From a virus: a DNA stretch of 64,000 nucleotides. The notes under the pieces are model-generated. The model was not told where the DNA came from. It worked only from the letters and a program-made list of their open reading frames with translations, and searched no databases. Shown piece after piece: positions 11,258 through 43,457 of this stretch. The translations under genes were made by a program, and so were the position numbers. Position 1 is the stretch's first letter; each line of letters opens with the position of its first letter. The stretch lies in IMG/VR virus record IMGVR_UViG_3300034107_000273, positions 43,957 to 107,956 of that record; one strand, 5' to 3'.

Positions 11258-11281
11258 CCTGAGCATGTGTATAAACTGCTC
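11258..11281 (+). repeat. 3' stem-loop repeat copy (GAGCA..TGCTC), after hsp20
   Basis: Stem arms GAGCA (11261-11265) and TGCTC (11277-11281), preceded by CCT, with TAAAC before the right arm. It matches the family found after minus-strand genes at 33-39 kb and here lies on the + strand, 9 bases after the hsp20 stop. Confidence 0.7.
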
Positions 11282-11344
11282 AATATTCACTTGGATTTAA
11301 TCATAAGTTTACCAATTATAACAAAAGTATATAGTTTTACACTA

Positions 11345-11350
11345 TATACT
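11345..11350 (+). promoter_or_regulatory. -10 element (TATACT) for pstS, leaderless geometry
   Basis: TATACT ends six bases before the ATG at 11357. There is no clear -35, so an activator (possibly host phosphate regulation) may be needed. This is inference. Confidence 0.6.
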
Positions 11351-11356
11351 ATAAGT

Positions 11357-17892: not shown

Positions 17893-18180
17893 ATGAAGCA
17901 ACACTTATGGAAAGATGAAGGTGCTTGCTTTGATATGGACACAAATTTATTTTTTGATAAATATGAAGACGATGAATTGATTAGACCAATAATAGATAAT
18001 CTTTGTCAATCATGTCCAGTTCAAAGAATATGTTTTGCCAATGGTGTATCTGGTAAAGAGTGGGGAATTTGGGGCGGTATTTACCTAGAAAATGGTGAAA
18101 TATCTAGAGAGTTTAGTAAACATAGAACAAAAGAAAAGTGGGGTGAAGTATGGAAATCTCTAACAATGGAGAAGAATTAA
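17893..18180 (+). CDS. WhiB-like Fe-S transcriptional regulator
   Basis: Four cysteines (GAC near residue 12, then C-x2-C and a fourth in QSCPVQRICF) are followed by the GIWGG turn, exactly the WhiB layout. WhiB proteins bind a 4Fe-4S cluster and interact with the principal sigma factor. They are restricted to Actinobacteria and their phages, and phage copies can repress host whiB genes. This is the strongest host marker in the window. Confidence 0.92.
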   Translation: MKQHLWKDEGACFDMDTNLFFDKYEDDELIRPIIDNLCQSCPVQRICFANGVSGKEWGIWGGIYLENGEISREFSKHRTKEKWGEVWKSLTMEKN

Positions 18181-24403: not shown

Positions 24404-24445
24404 CGATTCCCCCATTTTATTATAAAACAATTGTATCATGCTTTG

Positions 24446-24518
24446 TACCCCTGGCAGGAATTGAACCTGCGACACCAGGCTTAGAAGTCCTGTGTTCTAT
24501 CCACTGAACTACAGAGGT
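24446..24518 (-). tRNA. tRNA-Arg (anticodon TCT)
   Basis: Acceptor ACCTCTG pairs with CAGGGGT, the T stem is GCAGG/CCTGC, and the anticodon loop is CTTCTAA. The anticodon stem has one A-G mismatch next to the loop. It would read AGA, a codon frequent in this AT-rich phage. Confidence 0.9.
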
Positions 24519-24522
24519 TTGG

Positions 24523-24595
24523 AGCGAAAGACGAGATTTGAACTCGCAACATCTACCTTGGCAAGGTAGTACTCTACCAATTGAGTTACTTCCGC
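24523..24595 (-). tRNA. tRNA-Gly (anticodon GCC)
   Basis: Acceptor GCGGAAG/CTTTCGC, anticodon arm CTACC-TTGCCAA-GGTAG and T arm with GTTCAAATC are all well formed. It lies 4 bases upstream of tRNA-Arg in transcription order. Confidence 0.92.
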
Positions 24596-24600
24596 ATTGC

Positions 24601-24671
24601 TGGTCTGACAGGCTACGATCCTGTGACATCCGAATTAACAGTTCGGCGCTCTACCAACTGAGCTACAGACC
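24601..24671 (-). tRNA. tRNA-Asn (anticodon GTT), odd T-loop
   Basis: The anticodon arm is CCGAA-CTGTTAA-TTCGG. Acceptor GGTCTGT/TCAGACC has a T-T mismatch at position 7, and the T loop reads ATCGTAG instead of the usual TTCRANN. It may be a decaying gene or a variant fold. Confidence 0.8.
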
Positions 24672-24676
24672 ACTAG

Positions 24677-24750
24677 TGCACCAGGTAGGACTTGAACCTA
24701 CGACGACCAAATTATGAGTTTGGGGCTCTAACCAACTGAGCTACTGGAGC
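24677..24750 (-). tRNA. tRNA-Met-type (anticodon CAT)
   Basis: The anticodon arm is CCAAA-CTCATAA-TTTGG and the T arm GTAGG-TTCAAGT-CCTAC. CAT could also be the lysidine-modified tRNA-Ile. Acceptor GCTCCAG/CTGGTGC has one T-T mismatch. It is the first of four tRNA genes in the transcript. Confidence 0.88.
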
Positions 24751-32449: not shown

Positions 32450-32665
32450 TTAATTATAAGGGTTGCTGTTGATTTTGACAAGTTTTGGTGGTGTGATGTT
32501 AGTCACAGGCTCCAGGGTAGGTCCCTTAGCATCTGACTCTTCTAATAGGATAACTATACCCTCACCGTCACAGATGCAGGAAGGCTCTCTAACAAGATCT
32601 GAACAGGCAGTGATTTCAATCAGGGCATCGCAATCAATGCATAGATAATCATACTTAGTCCACAT
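32450..32665 (-). CDS. Zinc-binding protein, 71 aa
   Basis: CIDCDALIEITACSD and CICDGEG give four cysteines for a zinc ribbon. The C-terminal part is Pro-rich. A perfect TGTGA-N6-TCACA lies inside the coding sequence at 32492-32507. Confidence 0.6.
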   Translation of the reverse strand: MWTKYDYLCIDCDALIEITACSDLVREPSCICDGEGIVILLEESDAKGPTLEPVTNITPPKLVKINSNPYN

Positions 32666-33243: not shown

Positions 33244-33310
33244 CTCCTACGTAATAAAGTTTTTAATGAATGTTTATATTATGTAAAGTGCCCCCGAGCC
33301 GTTTTCCTGG

Positions 33311-33384
33311 CGATCCGTACGAGACTTGAACTCGTGACCTCTACCGTGACAGGGTAGCGCTCTAACCAACTGAGCTAACGGACC
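33311..33384 (-). tRNA. tRNA-Asp (anticodon GTC)
   Basis: Acceptor GGTCCGT/ACGGATC, anticodon arm CTACC-CTGTCAC-GGTAG and T arm with GTTCAAGTC are well formed. It lies between a stem-loop repeat and the next operon. Confidence 0.93.
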
Positions 33385-33427: not shown

Positions 33428-34444
33428 TTATGCAATCTGCATTACGTTTTGCACAACTTTTAGCAAACGATTTTTTTCTGCGTTAATTGCAGGGTCAAAA
33501 CCACTTGCACTAGCAAGAATACTTTCGTTATTCCCACCACGTGCAGAACGATACCAGTCAAGGCGTTCTGTTAGTGCATTGAAAGCACCCCATGCGTTAC
33601 CAGCAATCATGCCGTTAAACTCGCCTGTATAAATGTCGTTAATAACATCTACCTTGTTTTCCCATTTCTTGAAAGCACCCTTTGAGTCCTTTTCAGGCTT
33701 AGGGTATGCAGAAAGGATAATGTCATTGAAAGACTTAGCATTGACTTCTTTTTCAATCATTGCCTTAGCCATGATGTCAAATTCATCCATGTAAGCATTA
33801 GCAAGACCAAGAGTCTGTCGTGCAATAGCAACCTTACCGCTTGCTGTCTGTGTGTGACGTATCTTGAAAGATTGCTTGATACCATTCTTACGCTTTTTCT
33901 GATTAAGTGCAAGATTGAGAGTGTTAGCGCACACAACACGAACAGGTGTAATGCTTGCTTGAATAGCGATAGAGCCGTCATGTGATGTGTTGATAAGTAA
34001 ATAAGTCTTTACCTTATCTGCAACACCGCTAGGGTCTAGAACAGTTTCACGCTCTAGTGCTAGTGCGCCAAATACTACACGACCGCCCTTGATTGAGCCA
34101 GCAGTTTCCCAACGACCTCCGCCGTCTAGAATGTTATCACCAAATGAGAACAAGTCCTCATTCTGCATAACGTGGTAACGCTCACCAACGACACCAAGAA
34201 TGTCTGTCTGAGAGTTGTCAGTAGGATTGGTACGCAATACATACTGATAGTTTTTATCGCTTGTTAAGTGTGATGGAGTTTGCAAATCCTCTAGACGAAC
34301 ATTCCACCCATTGAGGTTAGCAAGAGCCAACATCTCTGATGTGTTTTTTTCCTCTGTAAAGACTGTACCCAATCCATGCCATGCAGGCTCTCTAAATGAA
34401 GCAAAAGAGGTCTTGCCGTTTTGTATTTCTAGGTCATGTGCCAT
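33428..34444 (-). CDS. DUF932 phage/plasmid-like protein (TIGR03299 type)
   Basis: The start MAHDLEIQNGKTSFASFREPAWHGLGTVF and VGERYHVMQNEDLFSFGD with VVCANTLNLAL are the signature of this family, often found in actinobacteriophages and plasmids. The length of 338 residues is typical. It may act in DNA metabolism or as an RNA/DNA-binding ring, but function is unproven. Confidence 0.88.
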   Translation of the reverse strand: MAHDLEIQNGKTSFASFREPAWHGLGTVFTEEKNTSEMLALANLNGWNVRLEDLQTPSHLTSDKNYQYVLRTNPTDNSQTDILGVVGERYHVMQNEDLFSFGDNILDGGGRWETAGSIKGGRVVFGALALERETVLDPSGVADKVKTYLLINTSHDGSIAIQASITPVRVVCANTLNLALNQKKRKNGIKQSFKIRHTQTASGKVAIARQTLGLANAYMDEFDIMAKAMIEKEVNAKSFNDIILSAYPKPEKDSKGAFKKWENKVDVINDIYTGEFNGMIAGNAWGAFNALTERLDWYRSARGGNNESILASASGFDPAINAEKNRLLKVVQNVMQIA

Positions 34445-34479: not shown

Positions 34480-34583
34480 AGTATAGCAGGATAGGCTGAC
34501 AAATGCAAAGCGGGATAGTTAAAAATGGGAAAAAATGGGGATTATTTTAATGTGTCGTAAATCACAGTGTGAGCTTGATCACG
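34480..34583 (-). promoter_or_regulatory. Control module for the DUF932 gene: promoter plus two GlxR/CRP-type boxes
   Basis: Minus strand: -10 TATACT at 34485-34480, TGTCAG element at 34502-34496, -35 TTGCAT at 34508-34503. Boxes TGTGT-N6-TCACA (34551-34566) and TGTGA-N6-TCACG (34568-34583) lie 73.5 and 90.5 bp upstream of the -10. Confidence 0.75.
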
Positions 34584-34627
34584 CCCCCCGAGCCGCTTTT
34601 TTATGCAACGGCATAAATAAAAATAAG

Positions 34628-34651
34628 GAGCAGTTTTAAAACATGCTCAGG
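34628..34651 (-). repeat. 3' stem-loop repeat copy
   Basis: GAGCA (34628-34632) and TGCTC (34644-34648) with GTTTTAAAAC in the loop, just after the stop of the gene at 34670. On the minus strand a T-rich run follows. Confidence 0.75.
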
Positions 34652-34669
34652 TTTATTAGTAGCCCCCTA

Positions 34670-35101
34670 CTAAATACTTACTCTCTCAATGGAAGAGGAT
34701 AGGTATTGAACTGAGTCTGAACTATAATCAACAGTATCAAAATCAATTTCATGAATTAAGTTTTGTGCCTCTTCTTCATTACGTGCATTAACTGTAATTG
34801 AATACTGAACTTCAACTTCTAGTTCAAATTCTTTTGTTAATTCAAAACCGCAAATGTCTGCAATTTCTTGTGCTTCTGACTCATTAAGCGTACCTGCTTC
34901 AATGGCTTCAAAGGTCCATTCTTGCATTGCTTCTACCATACGATTATGCTCTGCTGCTAAGCCGTATGAACGTTGTGTTACTACGCTGATGTGCTTTTCT
35001 AGTTCATCTATGCGTGTTTTGTTTGATGCTAACTGTGACTCAAGGAATTCTCTTGTCAAGTACATTGGCTTTTCTGTTGTTTCTGTGATTGGTTGGTCCA
35101 T
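34670..35101 (-). CDS. Coiled-coil hypothetical protein, 143 aa
   Basis: Residues about 17-65 form a coiled coil (FLESQLASNKTRIDELEKHIS). A beta-rich C-terminal half (FELEVEVQYSITVNARNEEEAQNL) resembles the small beta-alpha modules elsewhere. Function unknown. Confidence 0.68.
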   Translation of the reverse strand: MDQPITETTEKPMYLTREFLESQLASNKTRIDELEKHISVVTQRSYGLAAEHNRMVEAMQEWTFEAIEAGTLNESEAQEIADICGFELTKEFELEVEVQYSITVNARNEEEAQNLIHEIDFDTVDYSSDSVQYLSSSIERVSI

Positions 35102-35135
35102 AAGGGCTACCTCTTTCTGTTAGTTGTTTAGTTTA

Positions 35136-35165
35136 ATTGTACTGCAGGGCACTGACAAATGTCAA
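35136..35165 (-). promoter_or_regulatory. TGTCAG-type promoter TTGACA-18-TACAAT
   Basis: Minus strand: -35 at 35165-35160, TGTCAG at 35157-35152, -10 at 35141-35136, with 11 bp between TTGTCA and the -10. No GlxR-type box is present because the next gene's coding sequence abuts. Confidence 0.75.
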
Positions 35166-35663
35166 TTACCAAGATGATGCATAAGAAAATGACAACTTAT
35201 CAATTTCTGGTAGGGCAAATAGGCGTTCTAATTGACGGATAGTATTCTTGATATCATTCCAATACCATTCATCAATATCTGTACCACCAAAGAAAAATCC
35301 TGCTTGTGGTGGAAATAGGCTAGGGTCTTTAGTTTCTAGCGCATGCTTACACAGTGCAAGCAATTCTATTAGTTTATCTTGTGAGACATAGTAGTCTCCA
35401 CAGTCATCAATACCATTCTGAACATTCTTGACAAACCAAGCATGTATCTGATTAGCCTTGCGCCAATAAGCACAGGTAACTTCTACACTTGCTCCATAGA
35501 TATCTGTTGCAACATCTGTGAGTTGTGTCAATGCCATTAGGTCATTGAACTTAGGATATACGGCTTCAGGTGATGAATAAGATAATTCATCATTTGCTTG
35601 GAGCGCTTTCCAATTAATTTTTTCTAAATGCTTCTTAGCACTAAGGTACATGTCTAATCCCAT
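35166..35663 (-). CDS. Conserved phage protein (MGLDMYL type), 165 aa
   Basis: The start MGLDMYLSAKKH, the middle CAYWRKANQIHAWFVKNVQNG and the end GFFFGGTDIDEWYWNDI match a widespread phage family without an assigned function. Confidence 0.78.
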   Translation of the reverse strand: MGLDMYLSAKKHLEKINWKALQANDELSYSSPEAVYPKFNDLMALTQLTDVATDIYGASVEVTCAYWRKANQIHAWFVKNVQNGIDDCGDYYVSQDKLIELLALCKHALETKDPSLFPPQAGFFFGGTDIDEWYWNDIKNTIRQLERLFALPEIDKLSFSYASSW

Positions 35664-35701
35664 GGGGGCTTCCTTCTTTCTGTTGTTCTGATATTAATAT
35701 A

Positions 35702-35786
35702 ATTCTAGCAGGTTGGACTGACAAATGCCAATCGTAAATCCTGGGATCTTAAATAGTGGTACGTAAAGGGTGTGATTAAATTCACA
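35702..35786 (-). promoter_or_regulatory. Control module: TGTCAG promoter plus perfect GlxR/CRP-type box
   Basis: Minus strand: -10 TAGAAT at 35707-35702, TTGTCA at 35724-35719, -35 TTGGCA at 35730-35725. The perfect box TGTGA-N6-TCACA at 35771-35786 is centred 71.5 bp upstream of the -10. Confidence 0.78.
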
Positions 35787-35805
35787 TGAGCTCGGGGGCA
35801 AAAAG

Positions 35806-35830
35806 TGAACAGTTTTAATTCATGTTCAGG
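35806..35830 (-). repeat. 3' stem-loop repeat copy with compensatory change
   Basis: Arms TGAACA (35806-35811) and TGTTCA (35823-35828): both arms changed relative to the GAGCA/TGCTC consensus, keeping the stem intact. A T-run follows on the minus strand. Confidence 0.72.
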
Positions 35831-35868
35831 AATGCACCGCCTCGCTATAGCACTGGCAGTAACTTTGT

Positions 35869-35893
35869 TGAGCAGTTTTGCAACCTACTCAGG
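35869..35893 (-). repeat. 3' stem-loop repeat copy after the 140-aa gene
   Basis: TGAGCA (35869-35874) with TACTCA (35886-35891). In minus-strand RNA this gives a U-G wobble, while plus-strand RNA would have a C-A mismatch. Confidence 0.68.
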
Positions 35894-35931
35894 TTGTTTG
35901 GGTTCAGGACTTTAATTGCCTCCCAAATTAT

Positions 35932-36354
35932 TTAGAGATAACGAGCAACCGCATTGTAAGTGCTTGTGCTAACTACTTCCTCATCTGTCATCTTTAGGAT
36001 ACGAATAGCATTAGAGATTTCCTCTTTCTGCTCACGATAGTTATAAACAGAGATTGACTCAAAATCCCTCTCAGGCTCTTTAGGTAAATCCTTGTCTGAT
36101 ACTGTTAGGTCGTAGTCAATGTTGAGAGTGTTGTTCCAGTTGCGATAGTTAGTGCGAAAGTTTTCAGCCTTCTTGATGTTAGCAACCGCATAGTCGCTAA
36201 TCTCTTTCTGCCAAGCCTTACGCAACTTTTCATACTTTGCTTCGTTTGCTTCTTGTGATGCGTAGTCTGCTTCTAGTTTAGCAAGTGCTACTTCTAGTGC
36301 CTTGATTACCTTTGGTGTTGCTATCTTTACTGAGATTGCTTTTTGACGTGCCAT
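35932..36354 (-). CDS. Hypothetical helical protein, 140 aa
   Basis: The protein is Lys/Glu-rich and helical (ALEVALAKLEADYASQEANEAKYEKLRKAW), with a C-terminal NAIRILKMTDEEVVSTSTYNAVARYL. Function unknown. Confidence 0.68.
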   Translation of the reverse strand: MARQKAISVKIATPKVIKALEVALAKLEADYASQEANEAKYEKLRKAWQKEISDYAVANIKKAENFRTNYRNWNNTLNIDYDLTVSDKDLPKEPERDFESISVYNYREQKEEISNAIRILKMTDEEVVSTSTYNAVARYL

Positions 36355-36387
36355 GTGTTTTTCTCTTTTCTTTGGTGGGTTATTTAT

Positions 36388-36410
36388 AGTATAGGGGTTG
36401 GGTGTGACAT
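36388..36410 (-). promoter_or_regulatory. TGTCA-type promoter for the 140-aa gene
   Basis: Minus strand: -10 TATACT at 36393-36388 and ATGTCA at 36410-36405, 11 bp apart. No GlxR-type box was found between it and the next gene. Confidence 0.62.
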
Positions 36411-36418
36411 TTTTAGTG

Positions 36419-36443
36419 TGAGCAGTTTTAATTCATACTCAGG
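36419..36443 (-). repeat. 3' stem-loop repeat copy
   Basis: TGAGCA (36419-36424) and TACTCA (36436-36441), again pairing through a U-G wobble only in minus-strand RNA. It follows the stop of the gene at 36461. Confidence 0.72.
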
Positions 36444-36460
36444 AATAAGCAATTAACTAG

Positions 36461-36628
36461 TTACGCTTGGGCTTTCCATGTTGTCCAGCGTGTGTTGCCA
36501 TTAACGTCTAACTTAACACGAACTGTATCCTTTGATGTTGGTGCGATTTCAAGGATTGTTCCTGTTACCTTTGACTTTTGTGATGTGTAGAGGTCGCCTA
36601 CCTTGTATGTGTTTGTTGCTACTGTCAT
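36461..36628 (-). CDS. Small beta-barrel-like actinophage protein, 55 aa
   Basis: MTVATNTYKVGDLYTSQKS then VTGTILEIAP, VRVKLDVNGNTRWTTW: a compact beta fold I recognise from actinobacteriophages. The ATG at 36628 has an AGGAGA site. Function unknown. Confidence 0.7.
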   Translation of the reverse strand: MTVATNTYKVGDLYTSQKSKVTGTILEIAPTSKDTVRVKLDVNGNTRWTTWKAQA

Positions 36629-36662
36629 TTTATTTCTCCTTTTTAGTTTGTTGTATGTATTA

Positions 36663-36749
36663 AGTATAACATTTCCCACTGACATTTTTCAACTCCATTT
36701 CTGTTATTTCTCACTATTTGAGACGCTTGCGGGTGTGATGTAGGTCACT
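36663..36749 (-). promoter_or_regulatory. Control module: TGTCAG promoter plus GlxR/CRP-type box
   Basis: Minus strand: -10 TATACT at 36668-36663, ATGTCA at 36685-36680, -35 TTGAAA further up. The box TGTGA-N6-TCACT (36734-36749) is centred 73.5 bp upstream of the -10. Confidence 0.75.
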
Positions 36750-36815
36750 ATTGGTAAATCAGGAACACTAATAGGGCTATTATGAATAGCGGAATTATGC
36801 TTTCCATTTATCTCC

Positions 36816-37538
36816 TTACTTTTTACTTGATGAGAATACAACGTCACTCTTTGAGTATACACAAAGTGAGCAAGAAACGCAAGCGGAGCCTTGTTGAGAG
36901 ATTAGGGGAATGGCTTTTTTATTCTCAGGACACTTTGCCCCTACCTTGCCAATCATCTCTTTCATGTCTGCTTGTCCTACTTGAAAGTTTTTTGCGAGGT
37001 ATGCAAGACGAATACCATGATCTGTTTTAAGACCAATACCTATAGCCTTGTTTTCGCTATCTGTAGAATAGTATAAAGATAGATTAGGAATATCTTTAAG
37101 CATTACCGCTGCACTCTTCACTCTTGTATAAACCCAGAATTGAATTTCAGGATTATTAAGGATGACATGCTTCCATGCGAATGTATAAGTATCATTAAAG
37201 AAGTCGCCGTCCCAATGAATACGGAATAGCATAGGGGCTTCACGCTTTACACAATCAGCCTTGAAGTCTGCAATCATCTCTTCAAGCAATGCTTCAATAG
37301 TATCATGATCAGCGTCTTTAACTAATTCCCAATTATGTAATAGGTTTTTCTTTACTGTTGGGAATACCTTTTCCAATTTGCCTGCATAGCAAACACTCTC
37401 GCAGACACTCGTTGCGCCAGGACATGAATAGTTTTTTCCTGCAGGTAGTCCAAAGGTGTTGGCGATACTTGCTTGTTTTCCATTAGGGGTGACGGCATTA
37501 GCGACCTTTCTGTCTTTGCTTCTGAGTAGTTTAGTCAT
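36816..37538 (-). CDS. Gp88-like actinophage protein
   Basis: IANTFGLPAGKNYSCPGATSVCESVCYAGK is the hallmark of the Gp88 family of mycobacteriophages, followed by LFRIHWDGDFFNDTY and FWVYTR. Late CSLCVYS adds Cys ligands. The cysteine pattern suggests an Fe-S or zinc site. Function not established. Confidence 0.85.
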   Translation of the reverse strand: MTKLLRSKDRKVANAVTPNGKQASIANTFGLPAGKNYSCPGATSVCESVCYAGKLEKVFPTVKKNLLHNWELVKDADHDTIEALLEEMIADFKADCVKREAPMLFRIHWDGDFFNDTYTFAWKHVILNNPEIQFWVYTRVKSAAVMLKDIPNLSLYYSTDSENKAIGIGLKTDHGIRLAYLAKNFQVGQADMKEMIGKVGAKCPENKKAIPLISQQGSACVSCSLCVYSKSDVVFSSSKK

Positions 37539-37544
37539 GGTGGG

Positions 37545-37685
37545 TTACTCGCTTTCTTTCTTTAATTTTAGCATTTGGGACTGACATTTTTTTCTATTGT
37601 ATTTCTTTTTATTTGGAACAGCTGAGGCTGCATTAGAACGGCGAAGTTCCATTAACCTTCTTAATTCCTCAGAATTTTTCTTCAT
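37545..37685 (-). CDS. Small basic protein, 46 aa, leaderless
   Basis: MKKNSEELRRLMELRRSNAASAVPNKKKYNRKK then a basic tail. Its 3' part spans the promoter of the Gp88-like gene. TAAGAT lies six bases before the ATG. It is supported mainly by its promoter. Confidence 0.5.
   Translation of the reverse strand: MKKNSEELRRLMELRRSNAASAVPNKKKYNRKKCQSQMLKLKKESE
37565..37587 (-). promoter_or_regulatory. TGTCAG-type promoter for the Gp88-like gene
   Basis: Minus strand: -10 TAAAAT at 37570-37565 and ATGTCAG from 37587, 11 bp between ATGTCA and the -10. The -35 is weak. Confidence 0.65.
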
Positions 37686-37691
37686 AACTTA

Positions 37692-37746
37692 ATCTTATCA
37701 GAAATGGGAAAAAATATCAAATCTCTTAAATGTGATCAATCTCACA
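37692..37746 (-). promoter_or_regulatory. Leaderless promoter with perfect GlxR/CRP-type box
   Basis: Minus strand: -10 TAAGAT at 37697-37692, then ATG six bases on. The perfect box TGTGA-N6-TCACA (37731-37746) is centred 41.5 bp upstream of the -10. TTTTTTCCCAT lies between. This promoter lacks the TGTCAG element. Confidence 0.62.
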
Positions 37747-37767
37747 GGGCCCCCTCGGGCCGTTTTT

Positions 37768-38001
37768 TCAATCTAAATAAACGTACCAATCAACTTCATC
37801 ATCAAATGCAAACTGAACAATTTCTGATTCACCAAAATCATTTGTTATTTGAATGTCATAGTTATCTCCTGTTGAATCACTTTCAATAAAAGTAATTTCA
37901 ACAATCTCATCACCATAACCAATTAGATCCCCAATCTGTAGTGCATCTACAGTTAGCGAATCTGCTTTGACTAGTTCCATGTCAATCATTGTAGCACTCA
38001 T
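37768..38001 (-). CDS. Hypothetical acidic protein, 77 aa
   Basis: DALQIGDLIGYGDEIVEITFIESDSTGDNYDIQIT is a small beta-barrel-like pattern, and the C-terminus is acidic. It is the last gene of the 39.1-37.8 kb operon. Confidence 0.65.
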   Translation of the reverse strand: MSATMIDMELVKADSLTVDALQIGDLIGYGDEIVEITFIESDSTGDNYDIQITNDFGESEIVQFAFDDEVDWYVYLD

Positions 38002-38142
38002 TTAGATAAACTCCGCTAAATCTCTATCCATTATTTCATTCATGTCCACTCCTTGAGTTTCTGCTATGGCTTCCCATAGGTCTGATTCTGTATAGTTTCC
38101 ATCAGGATACCATTCTGCTAAAAGTGAGTATAAGTCTGTCAT
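38002..38142 (-). CDS. Small acidic protein, 46 aa
   Basis: MTDLYSLLAEWYPDGNYTESDLWEAIAETQGVD, a helical acidic micro-protein between two genes with touching ends. Confidence 0.6.
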   Translation of the reverse strand: MTDLYSLLAEWYPDGNYTESDLWEAIAETQGVDMNEIMDRDLAEFI

Positions 38143-38466
38143 TTATTCTAATCCCAATCCTAATTCATAGCCTGCATCTTCTTCCCAATAGTCTGCCTCA
38201 TCTTGTGGCAACCATGGGTCTAAGTGGTGTTGTTCAATAATTGCAAACGCTGGAGCGTGGCTCATTCCCTTATAGAATACTCCGTCTGGCATCGCAATCT
38301 GGCGCATGGCATCATTTTCATGGTATGCGTCAATAGCATCTATGCAAGGCTGAACCATGCTTAGTGGTACTGGTGGATAGTGATTACCTTGTAAGTGATA
38401 ACCAATAGCCTGTTCAAGTGTTATGTCTAGGTTTTCTGCTAAGTCCATCGCTGTATTGTATCCCAT
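38143..38466 (-). CDS. Hypothetical protein, 107 aa
   Basis: LENLDITLEQAIGYHLQGNHYPPVP-like start, then VQPCIDAIDAYHENDAMRQIAMPDGVFYKGMSHAPAFAIIEQHHLDPWL. His residues are frequent. A phage family of this type exists but its function is unknown to me. Confidence 0.7.
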   Translation of the reverse strand: MGYNTAMDLAENLDITLEQAIGYHLQGNHYPPVPLSMVQPCIDAIDAYHENDAMRQIAMPDGVFYKGMSHAPAFAIIEQHHLDPWLPQDEADYWEEDAGYELGLGLE

Positions 38467-38684
38467 TATCGTGTTACCACCATTCCTGTTTTGTAGAAAG
38501 TTTTTGTGTGCATTTTGCCTGAAGGTTCAGACAAGTTAATTGTTGAGTATTCATTAGCAAGTCCATGGTCAATAAACTTTTGATAAACTTCAACGGCAGA
38601 TAGGCAATCGCTATAACGACCAACCCAAGTAGTAGTAGGGTCTGAGTCATAGGTACAAGTGACTGAGTATAGGTATTCGTTCAT
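38466..38684 (-). CDS. Hypothetical beta-rich protein, 72 aa
   Basis: YLYSVTCTYDSDPTTTWVGRYSDCLSAVEVYQKFIDHG is one beta-hairpin plus helix unit similar to other small proteins here. The ends overlap the neighbours by one base. Confidence 0.65.
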   Translation of the reverse strand: MNEYLYSVTCTYDSDPTTTWVGRYSDCLSAVEVYQKFIDHGLANEYSTINLSEPSGKMHTKTFYKTGMVVTR

Positions 38685-38875
38685 TAGTTATTCTCCTTAT
38701 AGTTTTCGTTCATTATACTTTCAGCATACCATGCACAGTATTCATTTTCAAGCGACACGCCCTTGTTGCAATCGCAAAATTCTGAGTCGTATTCCTCGCC
38801 ACCATTACCAAAAAAGAGGACACCCTCATCATGGCAATCAACGCAATCAACCAAAAAGTCTAGTAAGTTTCCCAT
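38684..38875 (-). CDS. Zinc-binding protein, 63 aa
   Basis: DCVDCHDEGVLFFGNGG and FCDCN give a DnaJ-like C-x2-C..C-x-C ribbon. Acidic end. Operon member. Confidence 0.62.
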   Translation of the reverse strand: MGNLLDFLVDCVDCHDEGVLFFGNGGEEYDSEFCDCNKGVSLENEYCAWYAESIMNENYKENN

Positions 38876-38879
38876 TTAT

Positions 38880-39089
38880 TTATTCTCCAATCTTTACGGC
38901 TACTGTAGCCCAAAAGTCTTTTATGCCACGTGTTGGCGATACCTGAATTGCATACGCCTCAAAGTCTGAGCCGTACCAAACTGAGTCACGCTTTTCAGCA
39001 TGAACAACAACACCCTCATCATGGCGAGAGTGTGAGCGATAGTATTTTCCTACTAGTAGGCTTTCTATTGTATAAGGTTTTGCTGACAT
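38880..39089 (-). CDS. Hypothetical protein, 69 aa
   Basis: MSAKPYTIESLLVGKYYRSHSRHDEGVVVHAEKR with a beta-rich end. The ATG at 39089 is chosen because the promoter lies just upstream. It is the first gene of a six-gene operon. Confidence 0.65.
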   Translation of the reverse strand: MSAKPYTIESLLVGKYYRSHSRHDEGVVVHAEKRDSVWYGSDFEAYAIQVSPTRGIKDFWATVAVKIGE

Positions 39090-39133
39090 TAGCAACCTGC
39101 TTTCTTTTTGTTTATTTAACTTATTACTCTGTA

Positions 39134-39255
39134 ATCCTATCATGCGAGGCAGACAAAAAACTAATTACTAGCGAGTAATCTTAAATAGTGAGACGCTCAG
39201 AAAATGTGAGAAAAATCACAACCACGTAAAGTTATCCACAAGAGCCTGTGGAAAA
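39134..39255 (-). promoter_or_regulatory. Control module: promoter, perfect GlxR/CRP-type box and DnaA-like boxes
   Basis: Minus strand: -10 TAGGAT at 39139-39134, TTGTCT at 39156-39151 (11 bp apart). The perfect box TGTGA-N6-TCACA (39205-39220) is centred 73.5 bp upstream of the -10. TTATCCACA (39232-39240) and TGTGGAAAA (39247-39255) lie beyond it, facing each other. Confidence 0.75.
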
Positions 39256-39284
39256 CCCCCCGAGCTTTTTTATTTGAAAAGATC

Positions 39285-39305
39285 AAGCAGTTTTAAAACT
39301 TGCTT
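39285..39305 (-). repeat. 3' stem-loop repeat copy with second compensatory change
   Basis: AAGCA (39285-39289) pairs with TGCTT (39301-39305): both arms differ from GAGCA/TGCTC and still pair. Loop GTTTTAAAAC. It follows the stop of the gene at 39318. Confidence 0.75.
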
Positions 39306-39317
39306 AGGTTTTTTATT

Positions 39318-39524
39318 TTATTTTAGTAAAGCGTGTAATTCTGGCAGTTGGCAAATTTCTTTTGTGCAAGCATCATAGAATTTATTTTCATCAAATCTAG
39401 GATTGTCTGCACTGAACCATTCACTGAATTCAAAAATTAAATCTTGAAAAGTTTTTAATTCAATTTCATTTGCAAACTGATTTAGAATTTTTGCAGTTTC
39501 AACGTAGTCTTTACGTGTCATCAT
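39318..39524 (-). CDS. Hypothetical helical protein, 68 aa
   Basis: MMTRKDYVETAKILNQFANEI and FSEWFSADNPRFDENKFYDACTKE resemble a small family common in actinophages. Function unknown. Confidence 0.68.
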   Translation of the reverse strand: MMTRKDYVETAKILNQFANEIELKTFQDLIFEFSEWFSADNPRFDENKFYDACTKEICQLPELHALLK

Positions 39525-39685
39525 TATAGGCTCACCAATTTTTCTACATAGTGTGAAATTTGATTGTATGCATTAGCGCATTGATAACAATAAGTCTCAG
39601 TAGGAATTCCACCAAGCATTAGCGCATCAATTCCTGAATAAACCAACTCTGTTGAGTTGCAATTAATTACTTGACACTCTTTCAT
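39524..39685 (-). CDS. Zinc-ribbon protein, 53 aa
   Basis: Cys at positions 4, 9, 33 and 36 (KECQVINCN; YCYQCANAY) form a ribbon. It overlaps both neighbours by one base. Confidence 0.6.
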   Translation of the reverse strand: MKECQVINCNSTELVYSGIDALMLGGIPTETYCYQCANAYNQISHYVEKLVSL

Positions 39686-39888
39686 TATTCTGCCACCTTT
39701 AGAATTGCGTATGAGCCATTTTTATTTATTTCATCAAGAATAGGTTGCAAGCGTGAGCCAACCAATTCCTTTAGCATTTCTTCAAGCATTTGGACTTGCT
39801 CTTGCTTAGGAAGTGCAGCCATTGCCAGTGTGATAGGGTGTCCTGATTTGAATTCTGTTACGAATTTTAGATTATGTTCAACGTTCAT
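39685..39888 (-). CDS. Hypothetical helical protein, 67 aa
   Basis: LAMAALPKQEQVQMLEEMLKELVGSRLQPILDEINKNG is a long helical segment. Function unknown. Confidence 0.62.
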   Translation of the reverse strand: MNVEHNLKFVTEFKSGHPITLAMAALPKQEQVQMLEEMLKELVGSRLQPILDEINKNGSYAILKVAE

Positions 39889-39907
39889 TTATTTTATTTC
39901 CTATTCT

Positions 39908-40105
39908 TTAGTTTGAGTTAGTAAGTGTGCGAGTGCCACGTAGTGTTCCTGTAACACCTAGGGCATCACAAGATAGTTTTACAGATACGCCAACAGGTAA
40001 TTGTGTTGGGTATTGTGAGATGAATTGAGCAACAGCACCTTGTGAGGCGAAGTTGATTTTTTTTGTTGAACCTGAAAAGGTTTCTAGTGTTACAGTGTAA
40101 GTCAT
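39908..40105 (-). CDS. Hypothetical protein, 65 aa
   Basis: MTYTVTLETFSGSTKKINFASQGAVAQFISQYP, a beta-beta-alpha unit. It is the first gene of this operon. Confidence 0.65.
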   Translation of the reverse strand: MTYTVTLETFSGSTKKINFASQGAVAQFISQYPTQLPVGVSVKLSCDALGVTGTLRGTRTLTNSN

Positions 40106-40138
40106 TAAGTGACTCCCTTTCGTTTGTTTGATAAGACT

Positions 40139-40359
40139 ATCTTACCATTTGGGGCTGACAAATTAGGGCATTTATTTGCTAGGCTCATTGTGATTTGCAT
40201 CACACTTATTTGCTAGGCTCACTGCCTTATTTATCTTTATTTAATTGTTATACCTACAAGGGTACCAGATAAGTTTCAGGAAGTCAAAACGACACGCCGT
40301 AAAATGGGAAAAAATTTGTGTGACCTTAAACACATAAGTTATACACAGCCTGTGGAAAA
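40139..40359 (-). promoter_or_regulatory. Control module with GlxR/CRP-type boxes, 16-bp direct repeats and DnaA-like boxes
   Basis: Minus strand: -10 TAAGAT at 40144-40139, TTGTCA at 40161-40156. The perfect box at 40189-40204 is centred 52.5 bp upstream of the -10 and is flanked by direct repeats TTATTTGCTAGGCTCA (40172-40187, 40206-40221). A second box TGTGA-N6-ACACA lies at 40319-40334. TTATACACA (40339-40347) and TGTGGAAAA (40351-40359) follow. Confidence 0.72.
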
Positions 40360-40395
40360 CGCCTCGGGCCGTTTTTTATGCATGGATCTGAATTT

Positions 40396-40458
40396 TTATA
40401 AATTAGATTTCCAATAAATAAAACCAAACACAATCATTGCAATCATTACAACCAACAT
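40396..40458 (-). CDS. 20-aa membrane micro-protein, paralogue A
   Basis: MLVVMIAMIVFGFIYWKSNL is one membrane span. The reason to believe it is real is a near copy at 41350-41412 in the same position, last in an equivalent operon. Confidence 0.6.
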   Translation of the reverse strand: MLVVMIAMIVFGFIYWKSNL

Positions 40459-40461
40459 TTT

Positions 40462-40599
40462 TTATTCTCTTTCTAATTCTGTGTAATCAACAACAACAAA
40501 ATCAAGTCGTTCCAATGGAATAACTTTTAACCAAGATAGTGCAGACTCAAAGTTATCATCCTCAATGGTGACGGATAAATCAAAATTAAAAACTGGCAT
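40462..40599 (-). CDS. Small beta-alpha protein, 45 aa, paralogue A
   Basis: MPVFNFDLSVTIEDDNFESALSWLK parallels the protein at 41500-41649 (MATFEFNTFINVEADSYDEAI). The pattern is a strand, a VE-x-D turn and a helix. Confidence 0.62.
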   Translation of the reverse strand: MPVFNFDLSVTIEDDNFESALSWLKVIPLERLDFVVVDYTELERE

Positions 40600-40763
40600 T
40601 ATTTATTCTCCTTATAAAGAAAGTCCCACGCCTTACGGCATAACACAATTGAATTGCAATTGTCACAACAGATAACACCATGCTCATTTAATTCTAAATC
40701 ATACATGTCAATCATGGCAGTTACTGCACCACATACAGATTTTACAGGCACATAGGTACTCAT
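40599..40763 (-). CDS. Zinc-binding protein, 54 aa
   Basis: VCGAVTAMIDMYDLELNEHGVICCDNCNSIVLCRK has a C-x2-C pair and further Cys. It overlaps both neighbours. Confidence 0.6.
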   Translation of the reverse strand: MSTYVPVKSVCGAVTAMIDMYDLELNEHGVICCDNCNSIVLCRKAWDFLYKENK

Positions 40764-40948
40764 TATTTCTCACACTCACATTCTAAAGCAGATAGGTCAA
40801 AGTCGCAATGCTTGCAACCTTGAAACAAAAAGTGTTCATTGCAATAAATTGCAGTTTGCATTTCCTCGCAACACAAGAATTGTTTTGTGCCACGCAAAAA
40901 GACATTTGTTAAAGACATAGGGAAAAGGACAAGTGTAGGGGTACTCAT
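40763..40948 (-). CDS. Cys-rich protein, 61 aa
   Basis: The second half is Cys-rich: FLCCEEMQTAIYCNEHFLFQGCKHCDF and ECECEK. This gives two zinc-site halves. An internal ATG (MSLTNVF) is an alternative start. Confidence 0.6.
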   Translation of the reverse strand: MSTPTLVLFPMSLTNVFLRGTKQFLCCEEMQTAIYCNEHFLFQGCKHCDFDLSALECECEK

Positions 40949-41121
40949 TAGTTACTCACATACCAATCTGTCCATGTAGGGAATTGTTCAGGGTCACTAT
41001 CATAGTAGTAACGCTCAATGTTATTTTCACAATCCATGCAGAAAGTAAATTGTTCATCTCCAATTTCAGAGATAGCGGAAAGCATAGGTTTATGCTCATG
41101 TGTTTTTGTTAATGTAGTCAT
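40948..41121 (-). CDS. Small zinc-binding protein, 57 aa
   Basis: MTTLTKTHEHKPMLSAISEIGDEQFTF then FCMDCENNIERYYY and PTWTDWYVSN. It is the first gene of the 41.1-40.4 kb operon. Confidence 0.62.
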   Translation of the reverse strand: MTTLTKTHEHKPMLSAISEIGDEQFTFCMDCENNIERYYYDSDPEQFPTWTDWYVSN

Positions 41122-41178
41122 TTTATGACCACCTTTCTTTAGCGGATTTCTTTACCACTTTTATTTTCTTATACTGCA

Positions 41179-41298
41179 AGTATAGCCTATAAGTCTGACA
41201 TTTATCAACCTACTAGCCAGTAATTCCAGATAGTGAGACGCTCAAGTAATGTGATAAAGGACACACTTACTTAAAGTTATCCACAGAAGTTATCCACA
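41179..41298 (-). promoter_or_regulatory. Control module: promoter, GlxR/CRP-type box and two DnaA-like boxes
   Basis: Minus strand: -10 TATACT at 41184-41179, ATGTCAG from 41201, -35 TTGATA upstream (18-bp spacer). The box TGTGA-N6-ACACA (41250-41265) is centred 73.5 bp upstream of the -10. TTATCCACA occurs twice, at 41277-41285 and 41290-41298. Confidence 0.75.
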
Positions 41299-41315
41299 GG
41301 CGCCCCGAGCAAAAA

Positions 41316-41349
41316 ATCGCAGCTTTTTATTTCTGCGATCTTTTTTTAT
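41316..41349. terminator. Bidirectional terminator
   Basis: ATCGCAG (41316-41322) pairs with CTGCGAT (41333-41339). A T-run follows on the plus strand and an A-run precedes, so both strands get a U-tract. It replaces the GAGCA stem-loop found at this position in other modules. Confidence 0.82.
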
Positions 41350-41412
41350 TTATAAATTACTTTGCGAATAAATAAAACCAAAAACAATAAATGCAATCAT
41401 CACAACTAACAA
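41350..41412 (-). CDS. 20-aa membrane micro-protein, paralogue B, TTG start
   Basis: The start is TTG at 41412, six bases after GAGGAG. The product reads (M)LVVMIAFIVFGFIYSQSNL and differs from paralogue A at three positions plus start codon usage. Confidence 0.6.
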   Translation of the reverse strand: MLVVMIAFIVFGFIYSQSNL

Positions 41413-41413
41413 T

Positions 41414-41503
41414 TTATTTCTCCTCAATTTCATCTAGTAGATCCCATAGTGCAGTTTCTAATTCTTTAGAAACTAAATCTAATTTTTCTTGTAGTGTTTT
41501 CAT
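41414..41503 (-). CDS. Small helical protein, 29 aa
   Basis: MKTLQEKLDLVSKELETALWDLLDEIEEK is one long amphipathic helix. It contains the ribosome-binding site of paralogue B at its end and overlaps the upstream stop. Confidence 0.5.
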   Translation of the reverse strand: MKTLQEKLDLVSKELETALWDLLDEIEEK

Positions 41504-41649
41504 TCTGCATTCTCCAATTCATTTATGTCTGCGACATAGACATTGTTTTTATTTATTCCATAGTTTAATTGGAATTCAAATACAGTGATAGCCTCATCAT
41601 AGGAATCAGCCTCAACGTTTATGAAAGTATTAAATTCAAATGTAGCCAT
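41500..41649 (-). CDS. Small beta-alpha protein, 49 aa, paralogue B
   Basis: MATFEFNTFINVEADSYDEAITVFEF matches the 45-residue protein at 40462-40599 in pattern and operon position. Confidence 0.62.
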   Translation of the reverse strand: MATFEFNTFINVEADSYDEAITVFEFQLNYGINKNNVYVADINELENAE

Positions 41650-41663
41650 TCTTTATTCTCCCT

Positions 41664-41771
41664 TTATAGTGTTTTTCCGCAGTGGTTACAAGGTTTTCCT
41701 TGGTGGTCTATGCTAAGGGCATCATAGTTTGTGCCCTTCCAACAATGGTGGCATACGATTACAAAGTCCAT
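41664..41771 (-). CDS. Zinc-ribbon protein, 35 aa
   Basis: CHHCWKGTNYDALSIDHQGKPCNHCGK is a minimal two-knuckle ribbon with Cys at 7, 10, 28 and 31. Confidence 0.62.
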   Translation of the reverse strand: MDFVIVCHHCWKGTNYDALSIDHQGKPCNHCGKTL

Positions 41772-41941
41772 TATTCTGTTACCGCCTTATCTGTTATCAT
41801 TTTAAGAATTAACTGTAACTGTTCTGTAGTTAGTAGTGCTTGAGCGCAACCCCAAGCAAATGAAAGCGCAAGCGCACTATCTCCATAGTGCTCATTAGCA
41901 AGAGTGTTTATCTCTTGCGTTATCTCAAAATTAGTTTTCAT
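41771..41941 (-). CDS. Hypothetical helical protein, 56 aa
   Basis: MKTNFEITQEINTLANEHYGDSALALSFAWGCAQALL and QLQLILKMI. Coupled at both ends by one-base overlaps. Confidence 0.6.
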   Translation of the reverse strand: MKTNFEITQEINTLANEHYGDSALALSFAWGCAQALLTTEQLQLILKMITDKAVTE

Positions 41942-42036
41942 TATTTATTTTCTTCTTTCTTTAGTAGTGATAGGGCAAGGGCAAGACTTTGCTTGCGCTG
42001 GGCTTCTACGTGAGCCTTGTATTCTTCAAGTGTCAT
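41941..42036 (-). CDS. 31-aa micro-protein, paralogue A
   Basis: MTLEEYKAHVEAQRKQSLAL.. is a basic amphipathic helix. Its near twin lies at 42625-42720 with many synonymous differences, which argues for selection on the protein. Confidence 0.68.
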   Translation of the reverse strand: MTLEEYKAHVEAQRKQSLALALSLLKKEENK

Positions 42037-42067
42037 TTATCTGACCTTTCTTTTTCTTTATACTGTA

Positions 42068-42144
42068 ATTGTAGCATGGGGGTCTGACAAATTGGGGGAT
42101 ATCCATGGGCGTGTCGTAGAATTATTTTTGTGATGTTGGTCACA
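42068..42144 (-). promoter_or_regulatory. Control module: TGTCAG promoter plus perfect GlxR/CRP-type box
   Basis: Minus strand: -10 TACAAT at 42073-42068, TTGTCAG from 42090. The perfect box TGTGA-N6-TCACA (42129-42144) is centred 63.5 bp upstream of the -10. Confidence 0.76.
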
Positions 42145-42159
42145 AACGGCCCGAGCAAA

Positions 42160-42190
42160 ATTTGCAGCTGTTACACTGCAAATCTTTTTT
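42160..42190. terminator. Terminator hairpin
   Basis: ATTTGCAG (42160-42167) pairs with CTGCAAAT (42176-42183), then a T-run on the plus strand and a shorter one on the minus strand. It directly follows the minus-strand stop at 42190. Confidence 0.78.
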
Positions 42191-42288
42191 TACTTATTGC
42201 CAAACATGTTAAATATTTCATCAACCTGTTCATCAGTTAAGTGATCTAACTGAATTGCTTTTTCAAATTCAAAGAAATCTTTTTCCAT
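42190..42288 (-). CDS. Small acidic protein, 32 aa
   Basis: MEKDFFEFEKAIQLDHLTDEQVDEIFNMF is a helical, EF-like acidic segment without a full calcium loop. Last gene of its operon. Confidence 0.55.
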   Translation of the reverse strand: MEKDFFEFEKAIQLDHLTDEQVDEIFNMFGNK

Positions 42289-42482
42289 TATTCTGTTTCC
42301 TCGTTTTCTTCTAGTGCATCTTGAAAGTCATAGAGTGCCTCATTGTATGCGATTGGGTCGCACTCTTTTAGTATTTGCGAAGGGTAAAAAGTTAATTGTC
42401 CTATAGTTACAACAGGATAAGAATCATCTAGCATTTCATCAAATAATTCTTTACTAGCGAAAGCCATTTCAAAATCTAACAT
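42288..42482 (-). CDS. Hypothetical acidic protein, 64 aa
   Basis: MLDFEMAFASKELFDEMLDD then FYPSQILKECDPIAYNEALYDF. A similar pattern is common in actinophage small genes. Function unknown. Confidence 0.65.
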   Translation of the reverse strand: MLDFEMAFASKELFDEMLDDSYPVVTIGQLTFYPSQILKECDPIAYNEALYDFQDALEENEETE

Positions 42483-42628
42483 TAGTTTTCTTCTTTCTGT
42501 AGTAGGTAAGTATTAGTTAGGGAACGATTATTATTTGAGAACATAGACTCTATAACCGCTTTATCTTTTAGTGATTGAGCAATTCTTTTATCTTGTTGCT
42601 CTTTTAGAATTCTATCAAATGTGCTCAT
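42482..42628 (-). CDS. 48-aa protein, paralogue A
   Basis: MSTFDRILKEQQDKRIAQSLKDKAVIESMF.. is a near match to the plus-strand protein at 43458-43604. It is basic and helical. Confidence 0.68.
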   Translation of the reverse strand: MSTFDRILKEQQDKRIAQSLKDKAVIESMFSNNNRSLTNTYLLQKEEN

Positions 42629-42720
42629 TTGTCTGAGCCTTTCTTTAGTAGGGACATGGCTTGCAAGGTGCTTGCCTTGCGTTGCGCCTCAACGTGCGCC
42701 TTGTATTCTTCTAGTGTCAT
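42625..42720 (-). CDS. 31-aa micro-protein, paralogue B
   Basis: MTLEEYKAHVEAQRKASTLQ.. ending SLLKKGSDK. First gene of its operon, as is its twin at 41941-42036. Confidence 0.68.
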   Translation of the reverse strand: MTLEEYKAHVEAQRKASTLQAMSLLKKGSDK

Positions 42721-42755
42721 TTATTTAACGACCTTTCTTGTTGTTTATACTAGCA

Positions 42756-42822
42756 ATTCTAGCATGGGGGTCTGACAAATTAGCCTATTTGTTAGGGTGT
42801 GTCGTGTGTGACCTTAGTCACG
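42756..42822 (-). promoter_or_regulatory. Control module: TGTCAG promoter plus GlxR/CRP-type box
   Basis: Minus strand: -10 TAGAAT at 42761-42756 with TGC before it, TTGTCAG from 42778. The box TGTGA-N6-TCACG (42807-42822) is centred 53.5 bp upstream of the -10 and overlaps the stop codon of the next gene. Confidence 0.72.
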
Positions 42823-42987
42823 CCACAGGAATGGATTACCTGTAGCCTCATAGCCGTCACGCCATGAACAGCGAGGATAGACAGTGTGACTAGAAACATA
42901 GCCACACTCTGGGCAGATAACGTTTGCTAGTCGTGAGCGCATGGTTTCATAGCCCTCTGCATTTCTATTTTCAAACAGTGAGTTCAT
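42814..42987 (-). CDS. Zinc-binding protein, 57 aa
   Basis: NVICPECGYVSSHTVYPRCSW carries three of four zinc ligands. The start MNSLFENRNAEGYE follows GGAG. It is the only gene of its unit. Confidence 0.65.
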   Translation of the reverse strand: MNSLFENRNAEGYETMRSRLANVICPECGYVSSHTVYPRCSWRDGYEATGNPFLWRD

Positions 42988-43021
42988 TTGGAACTCCTTT
43001 CTTTATTTTCTTTATACTAGT

Positions 43022-43177
43022 ATTCTAGCACCTACCACTGACAAATTTGGAGATTTTTTGGGCGTGTCGTAGAACTATTTTTGTGATCCTCATCACATGG
43101 CCCCCGAGGCGTGTGAGCGACATCACATGCGACACGCCGTGTTTAGATTTGCTTTTGTCAGTCCTAACTGTTATACT
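43022..43177. promoter_or_regulatory. Divergent control module with two perfect GlxR/CRP-type boxes
   Basis: Minus promoter: -10 TAGAAT at 43027-43022, TTGTCAG from 43044. Plus promoter: TTGTCAG from 43155, -10 TATACT at 43172-43177, -35 TTGCTT. The boxes at 43082-43097 and 43112-43127 are 30 bp apart, and lie 62.5 and 92.5 bp from the minus -10 and 82.5 and 52.5 bp from the plus -10. Confidence 0.78.
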
Positions 43178-43226
43178 TGCAGTATTAGATAGTTAAAGTA
43201 TAACTACTAAACGAAAGGTCACTAAC

Positions 43227-43343
43227 ATGAACCCATTTACAGCACTACAAGATTTCCTAGATGAGAATGTCGCTTACGGACTAATTGGAGCCTTCATAGG
43301 CGTAGCAGTAGCCGTTATCCTATGCCTTACGCTTGGAGCGTGA
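43227..43343 (+). CDS. Small membrane protein, 38 aa
   Basis: MNPFTALQDFLDENVAYG then a single span (LIGAFIGVAVAVILCLTL). A GAAAGGT site precedes it. It is the first plus-strand gene after the divergent module. Confidence 0.62.
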   Translation: MNPFTALQDFLDENVAYGLIGAFIGVAVAVILCLTLGA

Positions 43344-43457
43344 CACACATCACACAACGCCAACGGCGTGTCGCCTTGACTTTTCAGGGTATGTATGATA
43401 CCCTTACAGGTATAACAATTAAATAAGATTAACTAACTAACAAGAAAGGTGTTCAGA

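Follow-up and report, generated by a model that had tools for sequence, protein, structure and literature searches.

Phages borrow single host regulators. At class I promoters of Escherichia coli, the box of the activator CRP lies at about -61.5, -71.5, -82.5 or -92.5 from the transcription start, and the middle promoters of phage T4 combine a MotA box at -30 with an extended -10. Actinobacterial promoters of the RecA-NDp type (recA P1) have the consensus tTGTCRgtg-8nt-TAnnnT, as quoted in PMC5656591. They are opened by PafBC, in which PafB contacts the -26 motif and PafC contacts domain 4 of sigmaA, and the activating ligand is single-stranded DNA (ssDNA) (PMC11804915). The published consensus of the regulator GlxR is TGTGANNTANNTCACA (PMC4254451). 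In this study, we analyzed a window of 64,000 nucleotides, bases 43957-107956 of the 107,956-base IMG/VR record IMGVR_UViG_3300034107_000273, in which boxes of the GlxR/CRP type lie upstream of the promoters of a block of phage operons.

The phage promoters resembled each of these systems in part. As in RecA-NDp/PafBC promoters, a -26 element TTGTCAG stands 11 base pairs (bp) before TAnnnT, in the same form as at recA of the likely host order. However, about 11 such promoters here form a block on a virus; the LexA box is missing from them, and the block has phased GlxR sites, which were absent at the host recA promoters examined. The GlxR/CRP regulon sites of Corynebacterium, Mycobacterium, and relatives likewise place the TGTGANNTANNTCACA operator upstream of promoters, and the protein of the likely hosts has the same recognition helix, but the phage sites are near-perfect, clustered in one block, and joined to a PafBC-type core. 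In E. coli class I CRP promoters, too, the activator box lies upstream of the -10 in steps of a helical turn, whereas the phage core mostly has a -26 element instead of a regular -35 and its inferred box positions are shifted by about 3 bp. T4 middle promoters similarly pair an extended -10 with an element around -30 to -24, which implies a re-tasked sigma region 4; in contrast, the phage element has the sequence of the PafBC element of the host itself, and no activator encoded by the phage was identified. We consider it likely (probability about 0.72) that host GlxR, acting in phase with a host PafBC-adapted RNA polymerase, activates the operon block. Our search of the open literature found no paper describing PafBC-dependent promoters in phages or a phage regulon in which GlxR and PafBC are combined.

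GlxR/CRP-type boxes and their core promoters

Eight perfect TGTGA-N6-TCACA palindromes were found in the window, whereas dinucleotide shuffles contained a mean of 0.10 and a maximum of 1. The original prediction, which was made from the letters of this DNA, had reported seven of them against its own expectation of about 0.06 at equal base use. All seven were present, and the eighth, at 32492-32507, lies just beyond the range that it covered. It had also mentioned several one-mismatch copies; allowing at most one mismatch, we counted 17 box sites where 3.2 were expected. The genome-wide scan that it proposed confined all perfect boxes to 32.5-43.2 kb of the window, with none in the other 44 kb of the record. 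The region has a normal composition with about 38% guanine plus cytosine (GC). In a profile of 461 distinct boxes, the arms and a central T and A were conserved, and the other inner and outer bases were variable (TGTGA-NN-TA-NN-TCACA). Judged by this profile, whose core TGTGANNTANNTCACA is the published GlxR consensus, the boxes are putative operators of the predicted GlxR/CRP type (PMC4254451).

The core beside the boxes had the form tTTGTCAG-N7-TGnTAnnnT and was C-rich in between, with exactly 11 bp from TTGTCA to TAnnnT. The original prediction had taken this core as an ordinary -10. By its sequence, it is instead of the actinobacterial RecA-NDp/PafBC "-26" type with an extended -10, the same form as in the recA promoters of freshwater actinobacteria. 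The "tg" that follows TTGTCRg in the RecA-NDp consensus was often CC in the phages. A -26 element of the PafBC type would bring in a second host regulator and, with it, a DNA-damage input. The record contained 13 tight RecA-NDp-like matches compared with 1.05 in shuffles, and 11 of them were intergenic. Two of the 13, at 39089 and 53214, are probably due to chance, because the former overlaps a start codon and the latter is within coding sequence, remote from the block. For the operons as a whole, an ordinary sigma-70 promoter was rejected, since consensus matches did not exceed the shuffle level and the 17-bp spacing was a minority signal.

Conservation and helical phasing in related phages

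To find relatives, IMG/VR was scanned with the DUF932-family gene of the block, which yielded 80 loci, on viral contigs from freshwater, at 90% or higher protein identity. These loci contained 358 perfect TGTGA-N6-TCACA boxes, whereas the same arms with control spacers of 4, 5, 7, and 8 occurred 6, 1, 0, and 0 times and other palindromes 0-11 times. The gap of 11 bp between TTGTCA and TAnnnT was observed in 385 cases and exceeded every other spacer. When the boxes alone served as anchor, the top flanking 7-mers were ATTTGTC, TTTGTCA, and TTGTCAG, indicating that the core motif was not created by the search pattern. A core was located within 100 bp of 140 of 291 boxes, compared with 0-2 for control spacers of 9-14. 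The clearest carriers had several proteins in common with this phage; among loci with at most one protein in common, 28 of 35 had no box phased to a core. Each of seven freshwater records contained 5-13 RecA-NDp matches and 3-9 boxes. Twelve cultured actinophages with a DUF932 gene (phages of Streptomyces, Gordonia/Rhodococcus, Microbacterium, Mycobacterium, and Arthrobacter) had one RecA-NDp match and two boxes in total. They were rejected as carriers of the same system, being essentially without both elements, and a nucleotide search of cultured phages with the operon block gave no match.

Distances were measured from the box centre to the first base of the -10 motif, and those for the boxes at 39205, 37731, 32492, and 40319 were counted by hand on the sequence. 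The list of box-to-10 distances given in the original prediction was reproduced exactly. For the related phages, in which a box scan and distance plot had been proposed, promoters in front of the same gene were pooled and each different distance in a pool was counted a single time, which limits double counting of relatives and gave 122 cases. The distances were strongly phased to the -10 (R = 0.62 at a 10.5-bp period, p ~ 3e-21), and half-turn jitter never matched this value in 20,000 trials. Peaks were found at 52.5, 62.5, and 72.5-73.5 bp, with smaller ones at 42.5 and 83.5 bp, and about 102 of the 122 cases were in phase. The box-to-start-codon distance, used as a control, was unphased (R = 0.13). 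Orthologous promoters differed in steps of about 10 bp, or about one turn, and the phase was kept through indels. Across relatives, for example, the promoters of the DUF932 gene had boxes at 61.5-62.5, 71.5-73.5, 82.5-83.5, and 89.5-91.5 bp. Both boxes between the divergent promoters of the window, at 43044 (minus strand) and 43155 (plus strand), were in phase for each promoter.

Further motifs were also fixed in position. CGACAC[AG]C, found at 42090-43070 of the window (minus strand), was located 38.5 bp upstream of the -10 in 33 gene groups of the phages. At host recA (L374-L376, L378, and L380), it was located 26.5-30.5 bp before the -10, about one helical turn from the phage position. Related loci (e.g., L048, L219, and L223) had position-fixed ATGTCCG repeats at 37 and 46 bp and GCGTCTCA at 53.5 bp before the -10.

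Candidate hosts, proposed mechanism, and alternatives

In the window are genes for a terminase, for portal-type and DNA replication proteins, for 2OG-Fe(II) oxygenases, and for a WhiB protein, a content that points to an actinobacterial host. Genomes of freshwater actinobacteria were reached through scans with a PstS-like protein of the phage; the identities, 30-34%, supply host candidates and not proof. The candidate order, with genomes of about 1.3 Mb, is probably Nanopelagicales. A relative of the DUF932 gene was found in 4 of 297 genomes of the phylum (27-39% identity), and this scarcity meant that no host was found by that route.

Both regulators were present in the candidate order. GlxR was found in 58 of 61 genomes, with one GlxR encoded, and its recognition helix is RETVNKALADFA. 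The helix GASRETVNKALADFA is that of Mycobacterium tuberculosis CRP, and the protein matched the GlxR structures of Corynebacterium glutamicum. A perfect GlxR box, otherwise rare in this order, was common to five candidate host genomes (L402-L406) and was located in a divergent intergenic region beside a ctaG-like gene. All 41 genomes searched gave WYL matches, usually as neighbouring pairs, and the pair examined adjoins tatC and matched PafB and PafC (PDB 6sj9, 7p5x, and 9fnd). The strict motif TTGTCA-N8-TGnTAnnnT occurred in 23 of 61 genomes. Five of the eight motif stretches examined were recA promoters, e.g., TTGTCAGTGGCTCCTGCTACCTT, followed by a LexA box, and another precedes a carD-like gene. 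The SOS box GAAC-N4-GTTC was present at all five host recA promoters, compared with 6 of 1111 phage promoters and none in the record; LexA co-regulation of the phage promoters was rejected on this count.

A domain search of the record proteins detected neither a cNMP-binding nor a WYL domain, and a phage-encoded CRP or WYL regulator was therefore rejected. The earlier remark that no CRP-family gene is visible thus extends to the whole record. No cyclase family was among the Pfam matches listed for the phage proteins. The original prediction had proposed that a set of operons is placed under a host regulator of the cyclic AMP (cAMP) type. The GlxR with helix RETVNKALADFA in the likely hosts agrees with this proposal, but the proposal is incomplete, as the second host regulator PafBC is also implicated.

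In the mechanism that we propose, the block of this freshwater actinophage would consist of a series of small operons that read leftward and a single divergent gene, each operon having a modular promoter borrowed from host regulation. The core, with its extended -10 (TGnTAnnnT) and the -26 element TTTGTCAG, would be opened by host PafBC through sigma adaptation of the housekeeping RNA polymerase, and PafBC would act on it once bound to ssDNA. Upstream, a near-perfect host GlxR/CRP site at about 41.5, 52.5, 62.5, 73, or 83 bp would present one helix face, from which GlxR could dock the alpha C-terminal domain of RNA polymerase, so that the PafBC-type core fires more. The block would then respond to the host cAMP state and to ssDNA made during infection. 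Because PafBC is switched on by ssDNA, the ssDNA borne by infection is a plausible trigger. At host recA, this core comes with a LexA operator, which would have been left out of the phage promoters. The arrangement suggests that the phage may read the energy and DNA-damage state of its host via copies of two host-like switches.

Several observations weigh against this mechanism. Of 530 phage promoters, 188 had a TTG at the distance of a normal -35 (17/18 bp), so some of these cores may have basal PafBC-free activity. About half of the perfect boxes had no RecA-NDp-type core within 100 bp; in the window, the boxes at 37731 and 32492 are each followed by an ordinary promoter at 41.5 bp and share the phase of the other boxes. 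Fifteen of the 122 cases form a minor class at 57.5/58.5 bp, which is out of phase by half a turn. In the printed cases of this class, AATGTCCG or a close variant nearly always directly followed the box. With a start assumed 7 nt downstream of the -10, the box centres would fall near -54.5, -64.5, -74.5, and -85.5, which differs by about 3 bp from the class I positions of E. coli. The class I-like helical steps noted in the original prediction were borne out as a periodicity in the relatives (R = 0.62), and "class I" applies to the periodicity only. Genomes of the candidate host order showed no enrichment of perfect boxes, 11 of 81 having a match. The candidate host was assigned from a PstS-like protein at 34% identity, WhiB, the GC content, and the similarity of the recA promoter.

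The likeness to RecA-NDp might be convergent, with the promoters activated by GlxR but independent of PafBC and TTTGTCAG read by a phage-encoded activator like MotA of phage T4 or serving as an offset -35. A MotA box with an extended -10 would fit the geometry as well, TTG stands at the normal -35 spacing in the 188 of 530 promoters mentioned above, and the phage has many genes of unknown function besides the encoded WhiB protein. However, the sequence, the 11-bp gap, and the following G agree with the RecA-NDp consensus and with the candidate host recA promoter at conserved positions, and PafBC is present in the likely hosts. We regard this explanation as unlikely, and give lower odds to the boxes not being activator sites at all. 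In that case, they could titrate host GlxR from its own regulon on replicating phage DNA, or GlxR could repress the block until cAMP falls. The phage sites are indeed nearer to the consensus than most host sites, and eight occur in one record. Titration, however, needs no helical phasing to the -10, yet the phasing was strong and withstood indels, and repression is at odds with the finding that no phased class puts a box over the core, the nearest classes being centred 41.5-42.5 bp before the -10.

Somewhat less probable again is binding of the palindromes by another protein, encoded either by the phage or by the host. Other motifs fixed in position lie nearby and speak for it, but both the arms and the central TA of the GlxR consensus were conserved, no cNMP-binding domain was detected in the record, and the recognition helix of host GlxR is the same as in M. 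tuberculosis CRP. An origin in base composition or chance repeats is hardly credible in view of the eight boxes against 0.10 in shuffles, the near-zero counts of the shifted-spacer controls, the conservation of the pattern in many contigs, and the phasing.

For a broader proposal, we see about even odds. A widespread clade of freshwater actinophages would run a whole early or middle block via a host-only switch with two inputs, phased cAMP-GlxR for the energy state and ssDNA-activated PafBC for DNA damage, the latter opening a recA-type core by sigma adaptation, with the LexA brake removed and the ssDNA of its own infection as the trigger. If true, the expression of viral genes would be coupled to the cAMP of the host and to the damage signal given by ssDNA, in abundant freshwater bacteria with largely unexplored phages. 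The block would also offer many natural promoters for studying how an upstream activator cooperates with sigma adaptation, and a sequence signature for spotting such phages in metagenomes.

Individual promoters and gene content

At the edge of the block is a one-mismatch box (43339-43354) that was assigned to no promoter. The divergent core TTGTCAGTCCTAACTGTTATACT (43155-43177, plus strand) and the core TTGTCAGTGGTAGGTGCTAGAAT (43022-43044, minus strand) have two perfect boxes in common. The box at 43112-43127 is 52.5 bp from the plus-strand -10 and 92.5 bp from the minus-strand -10, and that at 43082-43097 is 82.5 and 62.5 bp from them, respectively. All further RecA-NDp-type promoters of the block are on the minus strand. 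The core TTGTCAGACCCCCATGCTAGAAT (42756-42778) has a one-mismatch box at 42807-42822 (53.5 bp from the -10), TTGTCAGACCCCCATGCTACAAT (42068-42090) a perfect box at 42129-42144 (63.5 bp), and ATGTCAGACTTATAGGCTATACT (41179-41201) a one-mismatch box at 41250-41265 (73.5 bp) with DnaA-box-like TTATCCACA twice just upstream. A one-mismatch box at 40319-40334 lies about 62.5 bp from the -10 of a TTGACT-N17-TACCCT promoter, and the perfect box at 40189-40204 lies 52.5 bp from that of TTGTCAGCCCCAAATGGTAAGAT (40139-40161).

Farther left, the perfect box at 39205-39220 is 73.5 bp from the -10 of a degenerate RecA-NDp-type promoter (TTGTCTG-N10-TAGGAT, 39134-39156; core TTGTCT), at which relatives have TTGTCAG in the same place. 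The ordinary promoter downstream of the perfect box at 37731-37746 (41.5 bp) is TTGATA-N17-TAAGAT. No box was found within 130 bp of three promoters: the core ATGTCAGTCCCAAATGCTAAAAT (37565-37587), which drives the GP88-family gene (phrog_1392, 36816-37538, minus strand); a weak RecA-NDp-like promoter (ATGTCAC-N10-TATACT, 36388-36410); and the core TTGTCAGTGCCCTGCAGTACAAT (35136-35158), which also has TTGACA at -35. The core ATGTCAGTGGGAAATGTTATACT (36663-36685) has a one-mismatch box at 36734-36749 (73.5 bp), and TTGTCAGTCCAACCTGCTAGAAT (35702-35724) a perfect box at 35771-35786 (71.5 bp). Two one-mismatch boxes, at 34568-34583 (90.5 bp) and 34551-34566 (73.5 bp), precede the core TTGTCAGCCTATCCTGCTATACT (34480-34502) of the DUF932-family gene (phrog_1221, 33428-34444, minus strand), which is the first gene of its operon and was the marker for finding relatives. 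The perfect box at 32492-32507 is 41.5 bp from a promoter of the TTGTCA-N17-TATAAT type.

DnaA-box-like TTATCCACA (three exact copies, plus strand) and TTTTCCACA or variants were found just upstream of three GlxR boxes, at 39232-39255, 40339-40359, and 41277-41298. The motif was also present upstream of the corresponding promoters in relatives and could reflect a replication origin or DnaA as a regulator.

Elsewhere in the window, the WhiB-like protein (95 amino acids; 17893-18180, plus strand) is an actinophage marker and could touch region 4 of sigmaA. The PstS-like phosphate-binding protein (11267-12400, plus strand) matched PBP_like_2 (E 3.5e-42) and is likely encoded by an auxiliary metabolic gene. 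Among the matches listed, the 2OG-Fe(II) oxygenase family was matched by nine proteins (open reading frames of the window and L081-L083), an unusual expansion for one phage. Five tRNA genes were found on the minus strand, those for Arg, Gly, Asn, and Met clustered at 24445-24750 and that for Asp separate at 33308-33384.

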